The notes below the pieces were generated by a model that did no database searches, was not told the DNA's origin, and saw nothing but the letters and a program-made list of their open reading frames with translations. From Saccoglossus kowalevskii (taxonomy: Eukaryota > Hemichordata > Enteropneusta > Harrimaniidae), in assembly GCF_000003605.2 (NCBI RefSeq), contig NW_003143793.1:795130-816327 (forward strand): a stretch of DNA of 21,198 nt, written 5' to 3'. Both the position numbers and the translations under genes were made by a program. This document shows positions 7,966 through 16,900 of the stretch, in pieces (the first letter of the stretch is position 1; each line of letters begins with the position of its first letter).

Positions 7966-10900
7966 GTAAATATTCCATACAACCTAAGATAGATGATACT
8001 TATCACGTGTGTTTATTTTTTACCATCCCCATCCGGCTCAACACAACAATTATATTGGGGAGGGGCGGGCACTTGGCTGGTGCGAGGATCCTCATGTGCG
8101 TTCTGTAGTTCGTAGAGAAAGGGGCATATACTGTTCGAAGTTTGCATGTCCGAGAAAAAAAAACGAATAAAGGCTGCGTTTTAAAAGACTGACAGCTACT
8201 CATAGGTCCAGCAGGAGGCAAAACAACAAGAAAGTGTTTGGCAGTGGAAGATCTTGTTGTTTTGGAAGTTCTACCTGACCATTTGAAATCATGAGGGTGA
8301 CTAGAAGATTCGAAAAAAAGCTATACTTCAAGAGAGAGAAAAAATTACATGCAAGTGTTCCATGGAAACAAAGTTGGCACATTCAAGAAGTTAAAAATGT
8401 TTAGATAAGACATCAAGAAAAATTGCACTGATTAGACTCTTCTAGCCATCCCCATGATTTTAAATGGTTGACACCTAATCACTTTAAACTCACAGAGACA
8501 TGTTTTAAATAGAATGAGAAGACAGTGCATCTTCCTGGTAATTTTTGGTGATTAAGAAAAATATTTGACTTGCATTTATGTTTTCAAATTTAGAACCGCG
8601 TTATCGAGGCTGGGTTGTGCTCAAAATCAGTGTATTGAAAAGGAGAGACATGAAAATATTCCCCTTGATCCCAGATTTTGTGAATACTGTGTTAAACACA
8701 ACCAATTTTATATTTTAAAATTTTTTTTAAAGTTATGGTCACCTTTTTATATAATTCTGCAAGTCAAAACCCTGTGTGAAACATTTAGAACAGAAACAGC
8801 ATAGACCAGCATACATTGTAACACACCAAATTTGGAAATCTTTGATTGTGGAAAAATGTATTATGTGAAGTTAAATTGTTTTTGCTGTCTACAGGACAAT
8901 TATGGGTTTGACAAAATAGAAATACGAGATAATGGTGTGGGAATAAAACGGTCGGAGACCACACATATGGCCCAGAGACACTACACATCGAAAATATGTG
9001 ATCATGACGATTTAGAAACATTGTGCACATATGGTTTTAGAGGAGAGGCGCTTGCATCACTTTGTGCTGTTTCCAGTGTTACCATGACAACCAAAACAGC
9101 TGATGATGATATTGGAATGGTATATACTCTGGATCACCATGGAAAAATCACAGCTACCAAGCCTGCTCCAGTCAATCAGGGTAAGTAATACAAACTAGAT
9201 ATTTTGGCTGCTTAGTCTTTAAGCTAATGTGATTATCGTATTTGCACTAGGCTATTAGTAAGACTGAAAAAAGACTTTTTGGATGTTTTGTATGGAGTTT
9301 ATTTTCACTTATTTTATGTTGATGAGTTGAATGTAACATATATGGAAAAAGGAATATTCTCTGGATTTTAGTTTCACTGAATCATCCCTTCAGCAAAAAT
9401 AATTGTGGGCGAGTTTTGAATGAGCTCCTTTGGTTCCACGTTTCTTGGTTTACTGCTATACACATGTGCAATTTTTGCTAAAAGGTTCCAAATTTGTTTA
9501 CACTGTACATAGAAAACTTTATTTTAACAACAGTGCACTGTGCCACATCTCTATTAAAGAATATAACCACTTGGCTTAATTGTCGTCTTCCATTTTTACT
9601 GATCCCAAGGGTGTCAATGATTGGAACTCTCCAATGAGTGTGCAAGGCACCCAATGGGTCTATAAATTATGTTTCATAATGGGTAAGCGATACTATTTTT
9701 TGGCATTTTCAATTGCCAAGTGATTCCTTCTTGGCATTTTCAGGAATCGGGTCGTGGTTTTGCTATGTTGATCTAATGTGTGATATATGGCAATAATACT
9801 ATTTTAACATGATTTTCAACTAGTACTATTAAATCTTTGTTCAAAGCCGCATTCTTAATAGAAGTTTCACCCAACTTTTTTTTTAATAATTGAGAACCAA
9901 AAATTCATCATTTCTCATATGCGCAGCTGCTTAAATGGAAATCGCATCCCCTCTGCTGCATTGTGCCATTTTAATAGAAATCTACCGGGTAATACAGATT
10001 TTACAGTATAGATGTGCTTGTGTTATGTTTAGTTCACCATAAATAATGTATTAACTTATATATTAAATAAAATATACTATTCTATGTAATAGGGGTGTTT
10101 GTTTTTTCTTAATTTGTTCCATGGGGTGGGTATCCTCTTGTTTCAATTTGTGGACATTTCATTGGCAAATAATGATGACATGCTCAGGAAATTTACATAT
10201 TAATATTATGTATCTATTGTGATTCTGTGAGTGGTTCTATACTTCAGCAGATTAGAGTTAGTATTTAATTTGTAATATACATGTGTAATATCAGGTAGCA
10301 CAGTGAGTGCCACTCAGCTGTTCAAGAACATACCAGTCAGAAAACAATTCTATAATAGTAACAAGAAGAAGAAAGAAGAATTAAAGAAAGTTGAGGATTT
10401 GGTGATGGCATTTGGAGTAATCAGGCCGGAAGTTCGAATGACGTTGAGACACGATAAATCTCTACTCGTACAGAAAAATAAAGTCAATGATTGCAAGACA
10501 GCGTTAATGAATGTACTTGGGACAGCTGTGATGTCTCTGATGGAACCAGTCGTCTATTTGAATACTGAGCCACAGGTATGCATTACAAACTTTTATACCA
10601 TGGTTGCAGGTATGTTTGCACCTGTAACATGTTTATCGTAATAATGGCCGGTGGTCGCAACGCAATGTTCGCAATGGGTTCCATGTGACATATATATACA
10701 ATGCATGTGGGATAATTCTTTGTTTACAATCGAAAACGTGCTGTACAAAGACAATCACCCTTTGAAATTTGATGGTATGTGGCTTGATTCACAGTCAATT
10801 CGTCCCAATTCACTTTCGTCCCGACACATTCGTCCCACAAGTCGATTCATCACAATTCACATTCGTCCCACGAGTCGCTTCGTCCCAATTCACATTCGTT

Positions 10901-13900
10901 CCATTTCACATTCATCCCAATTCACATTCGTCCATTTTTTAAATTTTTAGTCAGCATTACGATCTTGAACAGGGTCAATTTCTATGCCAACTGCTACTGT
11001 CACGCTAACTAATAACTCCACGTTGCATGAACGGTGTATTTGTATTTATTAACTAATAACTCCACGTTGCGTGAACGGTGTATTTGTATTTATTAACTAA
11101 TAACTTGTACGTTGAATGTCCGGTGTATTTGTATTTATTAACTAATAACTCAGCGTTGTAGGTAAGGTGTATTTGGATATAACGTTGGCAAAAACAAAAT
11201 GGCGCAACGATGCCCAGGGTGTCTGGGTCGAGATGTCCAATTTGGGTCGAAGTGTCTTGGGTCGAGATGTCTAGAAATCTTATTTGGCGAGTTAGTAGTG
11301 GGCTAACCTTAAATCTGACGAATCGACTTGTGGGACGAATCGACTTTGGGACGAATTAACTTGTGGGACGAATCGACTTGGGACGAATCAACTTGTGGGA
11401 CGAAACGACTTGGGACGAATGTGATTTGGGAAGAATCGACCGTCCCCCTGTGATGTCAAAAATATGAGCAGCGATTTTGATAATTTCTGTTATCATAATA
11501 GGAATTTTAAGATGTGCAGTGTGACACTGCAACCTGCCCATAATTTTGATGAAATAAATTAGAATTATATGACCTCATTCAGGGCTCAAAATTAATGGTT
11601 CAGGTTGCCATAGGCAACCACATTTAGCATGGGACAACCACATGTGAAAACAAGTTGTCAATCGAGACAACCATGAAAATAAATCACAAAATACAAATAA
11701 AATATATGTTTTCTGTTTAAATATTATTCACTTCCAAGTAGTTTAAAATCATGCTGCTTGTGAAATTTCAGTGTGGTTGAGGTTGAACTGTGAGGGCGCT
11801 ATCTCACTCAAATATCGCCTTTTATGAGATTTCAATATGTTCATGAAGATGGTATTTGCCATATCATTCGTGACAATGTTTTCTGGCCCATATTTTTTGT
11901 GACATTTTGAATGAACAACTTTTTTATCAGGTAGACAACCATTTTCCAAAACTACATTTAGTTGTCCCACTGGACAACCAGTTAATTTTTTCTGCGCCCT
12001 CCTGTTATATGACTAGCGATTGCTTAATGTTACTGCACCAATCCCACTGTTGATTTTTGTTCTCAGATTACCATCAGTGGTTATGTTCCAAAGCCTGGAT
12101 CAGACACGCAGCAAACAAGCAGACCTACCAATGACAGATGTTTCATCTTTGTCAATAAACGACCTGTTCATCTGAAAGAAATTGAAAAAGTATGTATATA
12201 CTGACTTGAAAATCTTTATTTAAATAATACCCTGTATCCTGAATTGAATAATACATTTTCTTATGTGGATGTAGATGACATGTTTTTACCTGGTGACTTT
12301 TCCCCCAGAAGTAACACCATATGTTGTATCTAAATCTAAATGTGACCCAGTACATTCCTACTGGGTGTCAAAGACACTCTCACACCGGGTGTCAGAGACA
12401 GTCTCTAATAATGTTTTATTTGTATTCAGTTGGTGAAGCACATGTACAATGACAGCAATGGAAGTGACAGTTCAAATCGTCGTTATCCCATCTTATTCCT
12501 CAGTATCAATGTACCATCCAGTGTTGTCGATGTCAACTTGGATCCAAATAAGACCACTGTGTTACTACACAACAAGGTATGTGTGTAATCACTTGTAATT
12601 ATTGTACATTATGACAGTATGTATTGTACTCTATGTTCTAGTTTGAATGGACTTTGCCAACCAGCCTAGATAACCTTTTTTTTAGTGGAGACATTAAGGT
12701 GACTAGAACAGCCATATAAAATAATGATAAGATAAGATAGAATTTTATTACAACCGTTTGAAAAAGTTGATATTTCTAGTTGATTTTGAAAAAGTATAAT
12801 ATAGTTTATTGTCGGCAATGTTTTGTTTAAATTCTTTGACATGCAATCTGTGTAGTGTAATAAAAACAACAGCTACAATATTCACAAGACCCGACTTTTC
12901 GATAGCAAACATTTTCCTTGCTTGCTTGTTATTGAGTTTTCAGCATCTTAGAACATTTTCAAATCACTTAAATATACCAAGTATATGGCATTCTCTGTTT
13001 GACAATTGAAGATGGACTACCATACAAAATGAATATTCAATGTGAAGTGTTTCCTATTAAGATTTAGTCTAAGATGCATACCACACTTTTGAGCTTTATT
13101 CTGGAAATAATCTATATATGGTGTTTTTTGAAGTTATAGGATAATTATTTTATTACTGTAATACATCAAATGTTACTTACTTCCTTGGTTAGCTGTGCTC
13201 AGCATGGTTTGAAAAAAAATTTAAATAGCAATGCATGACTGGACTTATTGTAGTGAAGACAAATAATAATAAACTGGCGAAGATTTTATTTTATTTTATT
13301 TATTGGAAAAAGGCATTTAAAGGGTTATTGTAATTCTGACAACAGTTGAACTCACCGTCTTTTATTTTCAGGATGCCATCCATGCTGCAATTATATCAAT
13401 GTTGGGAAAAGTCTATGCTGGAAAATCAAAACCTGAAAACCTGAGTGGTAGTCGAATAGACGATGAGGACCATGTGCATACAAGTCCAAATGATTCTCAA
13501 AACATTGCAACCACAATCGTCAGAGATAATGATAAGTTAGAATTTCAGTCAGTTGCTGGAGCAGTTAAAATAAGTACCGTTGTCGAAAATAGTGTGAATG
13601 CAGACAAATCAACACTTAGTAGACCTTTTGACACATCAGACGAAATACAGGAGACTCCACGTCAAGTTGCCATGGACGATAGGTTGGAGAGTGTAGAGAA
13701 TGAAGGTGAACTTGGTGATAACATTGATTTTTCTCTTCTGGATGATTCAGTCATAAATATGTTGAACTGTGAAATGAAAGCAGGAGATGTCAGTACTGCA
13801 GAAATCAACGTTACCACTTCAGAAAATATTCTAACTGCAAAATCAAGTTTTGATGTGAAACAAGTACATGGTCATGGCAGTGTATTGGACAGTGCACCTG

Positions 13901-16900
13901 GCTGTGAAGCATTGACCAATCAAAATATGGCATCATCTGAAACAACCAATCAGGGATTAAAAGTATGTGGTGCCAATACAAATAAACCAATTGTTGAACC
14001 AAGAAAATTGAACAAAAATCAGGGCATGGTTAATTTGGAAGAGATTACTGGTGTTGACTGGAGTGCAGGTCGTGGTCTTGTTGATGGTAAAGGTATCCCT
14101 ATCCAAGTAAGTAAAGTTACCGATGTTGATGGTAAAGGTATCCCTATCCAAGTAAGTAAAGTTACCGATGTTGATGGTAAAGGTATTCCTATCCAAGTAC
14201 ATTGTAAGTAAAATTACCGATGTTGATGGTAAAGGTATTCTTATCCAAGTAAGTAAAGTTACCGATGTTGATGGTAAAGGTATCCCTATCCAAGTAAGTA
14301 AAGTTACTGATGTTGATGGTAAAGGTATCCCTATCCAAGTAAGTAAAGTTACTGATGTTGATGGTAAAGGTATCCCTATCCAAGTAAGTAAAGTTACCGA
14401 TGTTGATGTTTAAGGTATCCCTATCCAAGTAAGTAAAGTTACCGATGTTGATGTTTAAGGTATCCCTATCCAAGTAAGTAAAGTTACCGATGTTGATGTT
14501 TAAGGTATCCCTATCCAAGTAAGTAAAGTTACCGATGTTGATGTTTAAGGTATCCCTATCCAAGTAAGTAAAGTTACCGATGTTGATGTTTAAGGTATCC
14601 CTATCCAAGTAAGTAAAGTTACCGATGTTGATGTTTAAGGTATCCCTATCCAAGTAAGTAAAGTTACCGATGTTGATGTTTAAGGTATCCCTATCCAAGT
14701 AAGTAAAGTTACCGATGTTGATATTTAAGGTATCCCTATCCAAGTAGGTAAAGTTACCTATCTTGAGATGTTCAAAAAATGATGCAGTAAAAAAATTGAA
14801 GCAGATAAAAAGTGGCCCCTTTTGAACTGATGTTTCACACTAATAAATATATTTGTGCTCATCAACAGCTACTTTTAAGAGTCACTTGAAAACATTTCTT
14901 TTTAACCATTGTTATTAATCTAATCTTATTGTTATTTTAACTTACAAAATTCTTTTCAATCCCATTTCATTGCCATTTCAACTTTGTAAAGCACTCTGAG
15001 GCGCAGTGTAGTGCGCTATATAAGTAATAATAATAATAATAAATATACTGTAACTAAATTTTACTATGAATGTTTGCAATTTCTGTTTTCAAAGCCGGTG
15101 GGTTGTCACCTGTGCACGCGTGGGAATTGAGTCCCAAGCGACGGTAACAACACACGTTAAAACGCAAAGGCTCACGGGTAGACGCTTGTTTGTAAACAAT
15201 GACACGCTATGGCCATCTGACGCATGTGCAGGTGAAGACTCCCTCGCTTTAAGGCATTCATGAAGACAATTGTTTCATGGAAGTCTCTGACATTCCATAT
15301 TTAGAAATAATAATTTGCAAAATTAAATATGTTTCACAGTATAACTAATCTATGACAAAATGTTGCAAGGAATTAATTTATAAATTATAAAAATTATTTG
15401 TAATTAGCGTTTACATACATGTAAAACATTTAATAGGTCATAAATGTCTGTTTCTGATTCCAGCCTGTTCAGATACTAGGTGCTGCATGTTCTGTGGATG
15501 GTACAAGTAAAACATCACAAAGTCCAGTGAGAAATAAAAGACCATTAGAACTCAAGGCAAGTAATCATGGAAGTCATCCAGGATTATTGGTGAAAGGGGT
15601 AACAGTTTTTTTGAGGTCAAAAGGTCAACTTTGGAGGGCAAGAGAGGGGGGGTTATATTATTTACTAAAATGATTATGGTTAGTAAACAATTGATAAGTA
15701 TGCAAGTCAGGTTGCTGATAAATATTTTTGTTGCCAAATCAACATAAAAATGGAGGCTGTGTACTTTCAATGCTGGTTGAAATAAAGTCTTTCATTATAA
15801 TCAGCTCACAGCTCAGATTAAGTCACAAATAATGCGTCTCACATAATCACAACATCACAGGTTTTCTGTGAATAACTTGTGCATATTTTTAGGATGGACA
15901 ATCTACTCTGTACGACATGGTATGTAATACTCCAATCAGAAGACCTGTTACTGCACTACAGTGTTATGCAAATGAAGTTAAACCACAAGGTAAGATTGTT
16001 TCAGTGGATTGGTCAGAATTATGCATATGAATTTTGCAAACAAACGACTGGCTATTGAAATCTACCGCCTCCCCCTTCTTTTTCCAGCAAGCACAGTAAT
16101 GTAGCAACCAGGTTTTTTTTTTTATGTAATGTTAATTTTGCTCTGTTAGCTGAAGTCAAGATATGTTAATACTGGTGTTGTGAAATTTATATATTTACTA
16201 GTTGTGGAAGAAAGCCCTGGACTAAGTTCACTGGCCATTAATAAAGTAATAGCTGATAAATGGGAAATTCTTGATGATGAAGAACGAGAAAAATATGAAA
16301 CCATAGCAACCAATGATGAGAACAGGTCAGTTGAAAGTTGAAAGTTGAAATATTCATTTAATAATATTATCTATGAATGGCACCCTCAGTCTTTTCAATT
16401 TAAATTAATAAGGAGAGTTTTTTGTTTCTTATATCAGCAGATTTAATGAGATAAGATTAATTTGAAATAAGTTCAATTTAATGAATGTAGCCTTGTTTGC
16501 GTGATCGTGTGGATTTCTTTTGTCAGGTATCATCAGAAAATTCTGTCATCCAAACGTAAGAGATCTTTATGCAGCGTAAAACCAGTTGGTAAAAGGAAGC
16601 GAGTTGACCTGGTAAATGGATTTTTGTTTGTTTACATTGAAAAGGATAGTTTGTTTTCAATTTTTTGCTTTGCTAAGATCAGTTGTAGCAGTTAATCTAC
16701 TGTCTTAATTTTGATTTTATGATTAGGTTTTGACAACTAGAATTCAACAGTGACTGTAAAATGTACTGGCTGTAAGACTGCTAATTGATTTTTACCTTGG
16801 CAAGTGGATCATTAAATTTGTCATACTTGAGTAATAAAACACAAATTCCTGGGGTCAAGACTACTTATAAGATAGACCTAAGACCTACTATAGACCTTTT

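Follow-up and report, generated by a model that had tools for sequence, protein, structure and literature searches.

The splice donor of intron 6 of the PMS1 gene of Saccoglossus kowalevskii is multiplied by a minisatellite that spans the exon 6/intron 6 junction. The gene lies in a stretch of 21,198 nt of contig NW_003143793.1 (hereafter, the window), and each unit of the array consists of 27 nt that match the end of the exon and 18 nt that match the start of the intron; because the donor belongs to the unit, the copies carry it along. Both the array and the repeated donor at this junction are confirmed by the present analysis, in agreement with a sequence-only reading that had located a minisatellite there, described the 45-bp unit as the last nine codons of exon 6 followed by the first 18 nt of the intron, and placed donors at 14107, 14152, 14197, 14204 and 14249. 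Under the interpretation that we consider likely, the minisatellite was seeded at the junction, splicing would proceed predominantly from the donor at 14107 with some use of the one at 14152, and the array would be passive.

Tandem Repeats Finder (TRF) detected the array at 14079-14766, with a period of 45, 15.1 copies, 95% matches and a score of 1145, and the self-match at a lag of 45 was 92%. A chance origin was ruled out: the best TRF score over 100 dinucleotide-preserving shuffles of the entire window was 63 (24 rows altogether), and the motif CAAGTAAGT, which occurs 13 times in the window, every time inside the array, averaged 0.13 copies with a maximum of 1 over 100 shuffles. Splitting at GTTGA[T/G] resolved 15 units at 14080-14761, 14 of them 45 bp long and unit 3 of 52 bp, with starts at 14080, 14125 and 14170 and then in 45-bp steps from 14222 to 14717. 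These are head-to-tail, near-identical units in the size range of about 10-100 bp that defines a minisatellite, and the first of them straddles the junction of the gene model at 14106/14107. The proposal of fifteen near-identical donors holds for 13 of the 15 units, in which CAA/GTAAGT is exact; the donor of unit 15 is weakened (CAAGTAGGT), and that of unit 3 is split by an insertion, leaving CAAGTACAT and a displaced ATTGTAAGT at 14204. The commonest unit is represented by the seven identical copies 8-14 and is two substitutions away from the unit common to copies 1, 2 and 7; one variant is common to units 5-6 and another to units 3-4, and unit 15 is the most divergent among the 14 units of 45 bp. 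A TAA in the phase of the exon is present in 8 of the 15 copies (units 8-15), and copy 3 is frame-shifted.

The gene model was obtained by anchoring exons on splice signals and the reading frame, so that exon numbers refer to the coding exons of the predicted model, and an untranslated first exon could exist. The model comprises a 930-aa reading frame without internal stops, and its introns have GT-AG ends in 13 of 14 cases and GC-AG ends in one. Intron 7 (15557-15892) is of the GC-AG type, with a donor, AAG/GCAAGT, that is otherwise a perfect consensus, and the end TTTTTAG. In a Pfam search of the 930-aa protein, four of the five matches were above their own cut-offs, namely PF13589, PF02518 and PF01119, which cover the ATPase and transducer domains, including the DNA mismatch repair domain, and make the protein a member of the MutL family, and the HMG box PF00505 at residues 630-692, which follows a linker; the fifth, HMG_box_2, was just below (22.1 vs 22.4). 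The PDB search matched human PMS2, MutL and the HMG-box chain of human PMS1 (2cs1_A, E 5.2e-06). Given that, among these paralogs, the HMG box is carried by PMS1 and not by PMS2 or MLH1, the combination of ATPase and HMG-box matches identifies the gene as PMS1. Exon 6 ends in phase 0 with ...GTT GAT GGT AAA GGT ATC CCT ATC CAA/GTAAGT, and exon 7 starts at 15464 with CCT GTT CAG ATA CTA GGT (PVQILG), so that ...GKGIPIQ is joined in frame to PVQILG... (Table 1).

The consequences of donor choice are determined by the frame. Of the 16 donor sites checked, three keep it (14107, 14152 and 14197), and a full-length protein is thus possible from at most these three. Use of 14107 gives the computed normal protein of 930 aa, and the product from 14152 continues in frame into exon 7 with no stop on the way. 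The expectation that the second and third donors would add 15 and 30 residues is therefore borne out as far as the frame is concerned; the third site, however, is weak (CAAGTACAT, score below 70, the value that a donor in each of the other units passes), and the productive set stops there. The 7-bp insertion and the TAA at 14209 render all donors from 14204 onward non-productive, the 12 that start with 14249 all lying past that TAA and giving a length of +1 modulo 3. Stop-containing RNAs with downstream exon junctions are expected targets of nonsense-mediated decay, and the model has eight exon junctions downstream of exon 7. A weaker donor-like site, ATG/GTAAAG (72.8), is present in units 1-7 and lost in units 8-15. 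The scores used here rely on a Shapiro-Senapathy-type frequency table and the U1 5' end and are good for ranking sites only; by this ranking, 14107 (87.2) is sixth among the 14 donors of the gene (range 75.6-93.8).

Table 1. Positions in the window of the PMS1 coding region, the minisatellite and its donors (a slash marks the splice junction)
Feature	Position	Strand	Basis
PMS1 coding region, 15 coding exons, 930 aa	7789..20339	+	gene model, domain and PDB matches
PMS1 coding exon 6, 735 nt	13372..14106	+	gene model
45-bp minisatellite, 15 units (unit 3, 52 bp)	14080..14761	+	TRF, unit splitting, shuffles
Unit 1, exonic 27 nt: last nine codons of coding exon 6 (VDGKGIPIQ)	14080..14106	+	frame continuous with exon 6
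Unit 1, intronic 18 nt, starting GTAAGT; proposed normal donor of intron 6	14107..14124	+	gene model
Second donor, CAA/GTAAGT; use would add 15 residues in frame	14152..14157	+	
Unit 3, with 7-bp insertion: donor split, frame shifted, TAA at 14209-14211	14170..14221	+	
Third in-frame donor, weak (CAA/GTACAT); use would add 30 residues	14197..14202	+	
Displaced donor of unit 3, ATT/GTAAGT; use would shift the frame (+97 nt) and run into a stop in exon 7	14204..14209	+	
Donors of units 4-15 (14249, then 45-nt steps to 14744); none is in frame and all lie past the TAA at 14209	14249..14749	+	
Units 8-14, identical, with GTTTAAGG (TAA in the phase of the exon) vs GGTAAAGG in units 1-7	14402..14716	+	
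PMS1 coding exon 7 (PVQILG...), common acceptor partner	15464..15556	+	gene model; acceptor tract with 12/17 pyrimidines

The order of the units bears the mark of local duplication. Adjacent units are identical in 8 of 14 pairs vs 3.3 expected (P 0.00075, 100,000 shuffles of unit order), and such clustering of variants in adjacent copies is what local duplication predicts. The end of exon 6 is coding and all further copies lie on its 3', intronic side, so that the array is most simply read as having expanded from the junction into the intron. The tetranucleotide TTGA is found both where the array begins (14081-14084) and just beyond its end (14763-14766), and the two would be one unit apart if the array were reduced to a single copy; slippage between these short repeats could account for the first duplication. 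A unit length divisible by three has a one-in-three chance of arising. Upstream of the array, exon 6 contains TTACTGGTGTTGACTGG at 14045-14061, similar to the unit boundary TTACTGATGTTGATGG, possibly an older relic or a chance resemblance.

We also considered splice acceptors within the array. Intron gain by duplication of an AGGT-containing segment was rejected, the acceptor of the model, 15464, being outside the array. The AG dinucleotides of the array listed with 9 or more pyrimidines of 17 (9-11 were seen) are all AAG except for one TAG at 14748 (9/17), and none is CAG; their tracts are not below those of the real acceptors of the gene (8-14 pyrimidines of 17). Mini-introns, recursive splicing or the use of acceptors within the array appear unlikely.

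The scenario that we favour is as follows. Tandem duplication of 45 bp spanning the exon 6/intron 6 junction would have started the minisatellite, which would then have expanded within the intron through local events, either slippage or unequal exchange. Unit 1 is at once coding sequence and the first donor, and all remaining copies follow this donor and precede the acceptor at 15464. The spliceosome would act mainly at 14107, yielding the 930-aa protein, with low-level use of 14152 adding 15 aa in frame; this division of labour, with dominance of the first donor and leakage to the second, is inferred from the ABCA7 and IFI6 precedents discussed below. Use of 14204 or of later donors would lead to frameshifts and stops, with loss of the resulting RNAs to nonsense-mediated decay. 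The array would then probably be a passive passenger and not a regulator.

The regulatory role that had been suggested for the array found no support in tests that are themselves weak. Ten mutation events were counted by hand among the copies, two of which fall in the donor 9-mer vs 2.0 expected, a small test with little power, given that two of the ten always occur together and the number of events is perhaps nine. RNA structure as a regulator was rejected: the fold of units 1-3 is close to that of shuffled sequence (z -0.82; 40 of 200 shuffles fold equally well or better), and the predicted accessibility of the 15 donor sites of units 1-14 (0.27-0.64) falls roughly within the span of the gene's 13 other donors (0.07-0.64), the donor of unit 15 being nearly closed (0.01). 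None of the fold, accessibility and selection tests, weak as they are, points to function, and the data fit a minisatellite that expanded through local duplication, with no visible selection for how many donors it carries.

Several observations weigh against the dominance of the first donor. The sites at 14107 and 14152 are equal both in score (87.2) and in pairing with U1 (-7.2 kcal/mol), and 14107 is predicted to be less accessible (0.32) than 14152 (0.52) and the donors of units 4-14 (0.44-0.64). This leaves position and context as the factors that could favour the first donor, and among equal duplicated donors the one closer to the acceptor can be preferred. The small share of the second donor in ABCA7 (about 2%), moreover, understates its use because the one-unit product is out of frame there and rises when decay is blocked (PMC5954066, in part). 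The in-frame product with 15 additional residues in PMS1, being spared from decay, could therefore be more abundant than its counterpart in ABCA7.

Under an alternative, the first two or three donors are all appreciably used, yielding PMS1 whose linker, ahead of the HMG box, is longer by zero, one or two 15-residue repeats. In its favour, the product from 14152 reads into exon 7 without a stop or a change of frame, the first two donors do not differ in sequence, the second is predicted to be more accessible, and a passage on IFI6 reports three mRNAs produced by such a route (PMC4526556). The weak third site (CAAGTACAT, below 70) and the share of only about 2% given for the one-unit product of ABCA7 with decay active, in a passage of PMC5954066, argue against it, and we consider this alternative rather unlikely.

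A more elaborate version, which appears improbable to us, combines this series of linker lengths (0, 15 or 30 residues from the first donors) with a non-productive fraction arising from the donors past the TAA at 14209, the whole being tunable by copy number, and with null alleles made by copy exchange. Null alleles could arise by exchange because eight intronic copies (units 8-15) carry a stop in the phase of the exon. If this were the case, exchange between these stop-bearing units and the coding copy could make the dose of PMS1 heritable and unstable, in a gene that has been implicated in somatic repeat expansion, as a portion of one report has it (PMC11015039).

The intact donors past the TAA at 14209 could also act as a brake, capturing U1 and diverting transcripts into non-productive RNA, so that the dose of PMS1 would be lowered with copy number. 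Units 4-15, that is, 12 of the 15, carry donors that would give stop-containing RNA, 11 of them with exact CAAGTAAGT; the donors, however, show no sign of constraint in the event test, and the retention of one unit in ABCA7 is described as independent of the length of the variable number tandem repeat (VNTR), although the skipping of exon 19 rose with length (PMC5954066, in part). A brake of this kind is, in our estimate, quite improbable.

It is very unlikely that the array is an assembly error, being absent, shorter or longer in the real genome. Seven identical consecutive 45-bp units are difficult for short reads, and the exact copy number is uncertain; nevertheless, units 3, 4, 5-6 and 15 carry variants of their own, which makes an invented array unlikely. 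Finally, that the array is or was coding, with exon 6 running through units 1-3 as a protein repeat, is extremely unlikely: the frame of exon 6 does stay open across two full units into the third, up to 14208, but by chance alone roughly every second 15-codon unit would lack a stop in a given frame (arithmetic for equal base use), copy 3 carries a frameshift and a stop, copies 8-15 carry TAA, and the direct Q/PVQILG join resembles the human PMS1 motif GENIEPVKILV.

The locus offers a clean natural experiment on donor choice by the spliceosome when identical donors recur at regular intervals: one 9-mer is present 13 times with equal predicted U1 pairing, at 45-nt steps and with one acceptor, and a frame break sets the three donors that may be productive apart from the others. 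Furthermore, the end of an exon is here coupled to an intronic repeat, and copies that carry stops could overwrite the coding one.

Several other features were observed in the window. An ORMDL-family gene, represented by two coding stretches at about 831-968 and 2019-2192 on the minus strand, is arranged head-to-head with PMS1; the stretches match PF04061 (E 9.6e-17 and 5.1e-12) at the adjoining profile positions 49-92 and 1-48. ORMDL1 and PMS1 are presumably neighbours in human as well, and the pairing may be ancient. Intron 3 of PMS1 contains, at 10790-11440, two mutually inverted arrays with units of 16-33 bp (ATTCGTCCCAA... and GACGAATCGACTT...), their 57-nt arms being 81% complementary and 432 nt apart, and they flank a 44-bp direct repeat (11006-11175); from its sequence, this structure looks like a foldback-type mobile element. 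Directly after the minisatellite, GCGCAGTGTAGTGCGCTATATAAGTAATAATAATAATAATAA at 14990-15045 resembles the 3' tail of a tRNA-derived short interspersed element (SINE), as judged from its sequence.

Database searches added little. The protein of PMS1 exon 2 had no relative in viral_contigs, and in genome_contigs the best 80 of 569 stretches encoding relatives were bacterial or archaeal by title; these would be MutL relatives that lack the exon 6/intron 6 junction. A search of 25 bases of the unit against viral_contigs gave 0 exact matches, and Rfam gave 0 matches at gathering scores. In the open-licence literature, which leaves most subscription papers outside its scope, a specific search and the 10 listed among 943 loose matches of a broader one gave no report of a donor-bearing minisatellite in PMS1 or in any mismatch-repair gene. 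The sequence-only reading, too, knew of no described mismatch-repair gene with such an arrangement. As a kind, however, the arrangement is known: donor-multiplying minisatellites are described, in the passages of these reports that bear on the point, in at least two human genes, IFI6 (PMC4526556) and ABCA7 (PMC5954066). What is new here is the gene, the inclusion of nine codons in the unit, and a second donor that keeps the frame together with a frame break in unit 3.

Among known systems, several tandem duplications at exon-intron boundaries resemble the PMS1 array more loosely. In human CBS, a passage of PMC2630376 describes 844ins68 as a short tandem duplication across an intron/exon junction that creates two close splice sites, of which the more distal is strongly favoured; the text speaks of a splice donor and the cited title of 3' splice site selection, so that the case bears only loosely on donor choice. 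In human segmental duplications, internal tandem repeats at exon-intron boundaries were reported in 162 alignments, with 27 intron modifications upon inspection (PMC2812944, in part). Such boundary repeats can likewise alter splicing, but new introns are reported there, whereas the intron of PMS1 pre-exists in our model. The Rogers model, as outlined in part of PMC4974935, derives intron gain from the tandem duplication of an AGGT-containing exon segment and includes a fission-yeast case with several 24-bp copies; AGGT is present in every PMS1 unit, but no new intron appears in the PMS1 model, in which the acceptor is ~700 bp beyond the array.

The closest parallels are IFI6 and ABCA7. The unit of the IFI6 minisatellite is 12 bp long and thus also in frame, and the isoforms differ by four residues. 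This minisatellite was reportedly described by Turri, Cuin and Porter in 1995 (Nucleic Acids Res 23:1854). According to a passage of PMC4526556, the minisatellite of human IFI6 (also 6-16 or G1P3) supplies multiple splice donors, two downstream units being used as such to give three mRNAs. The likeness to PMS1 lies in this multiplication of donors; the gene is another one, the unit is much shorter, and donor use is reported in RNA there and inferred for PMS1. In intron 18 of human ABCA7, parts of PMC5954066 describe a VNTR of which the first two bases are the donor of exon 18, with 23.7 units in the reference and alleles of about 12 to about 427 units of 25 bp. Retention of one unit through an array donor amounts to 2 +/- 1% of transcripts with decay active, independently of array length, the skipping of exon 19 increases with length, and stop-containing transcripts are raised by blocking decay (PMC5954066). 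The 25-bp unit starts at the GT without any coding part, and the retention of one unit is out of frame, unlike in PMS1. In all three genes, nevertheless, a tandem array supplies repeated donors, and as in ABCA7, the array of PMS1 begins with the exon's own donor, at 14107 in our model, and repeats it into the intron, exactly so in 13 of its 15 units.
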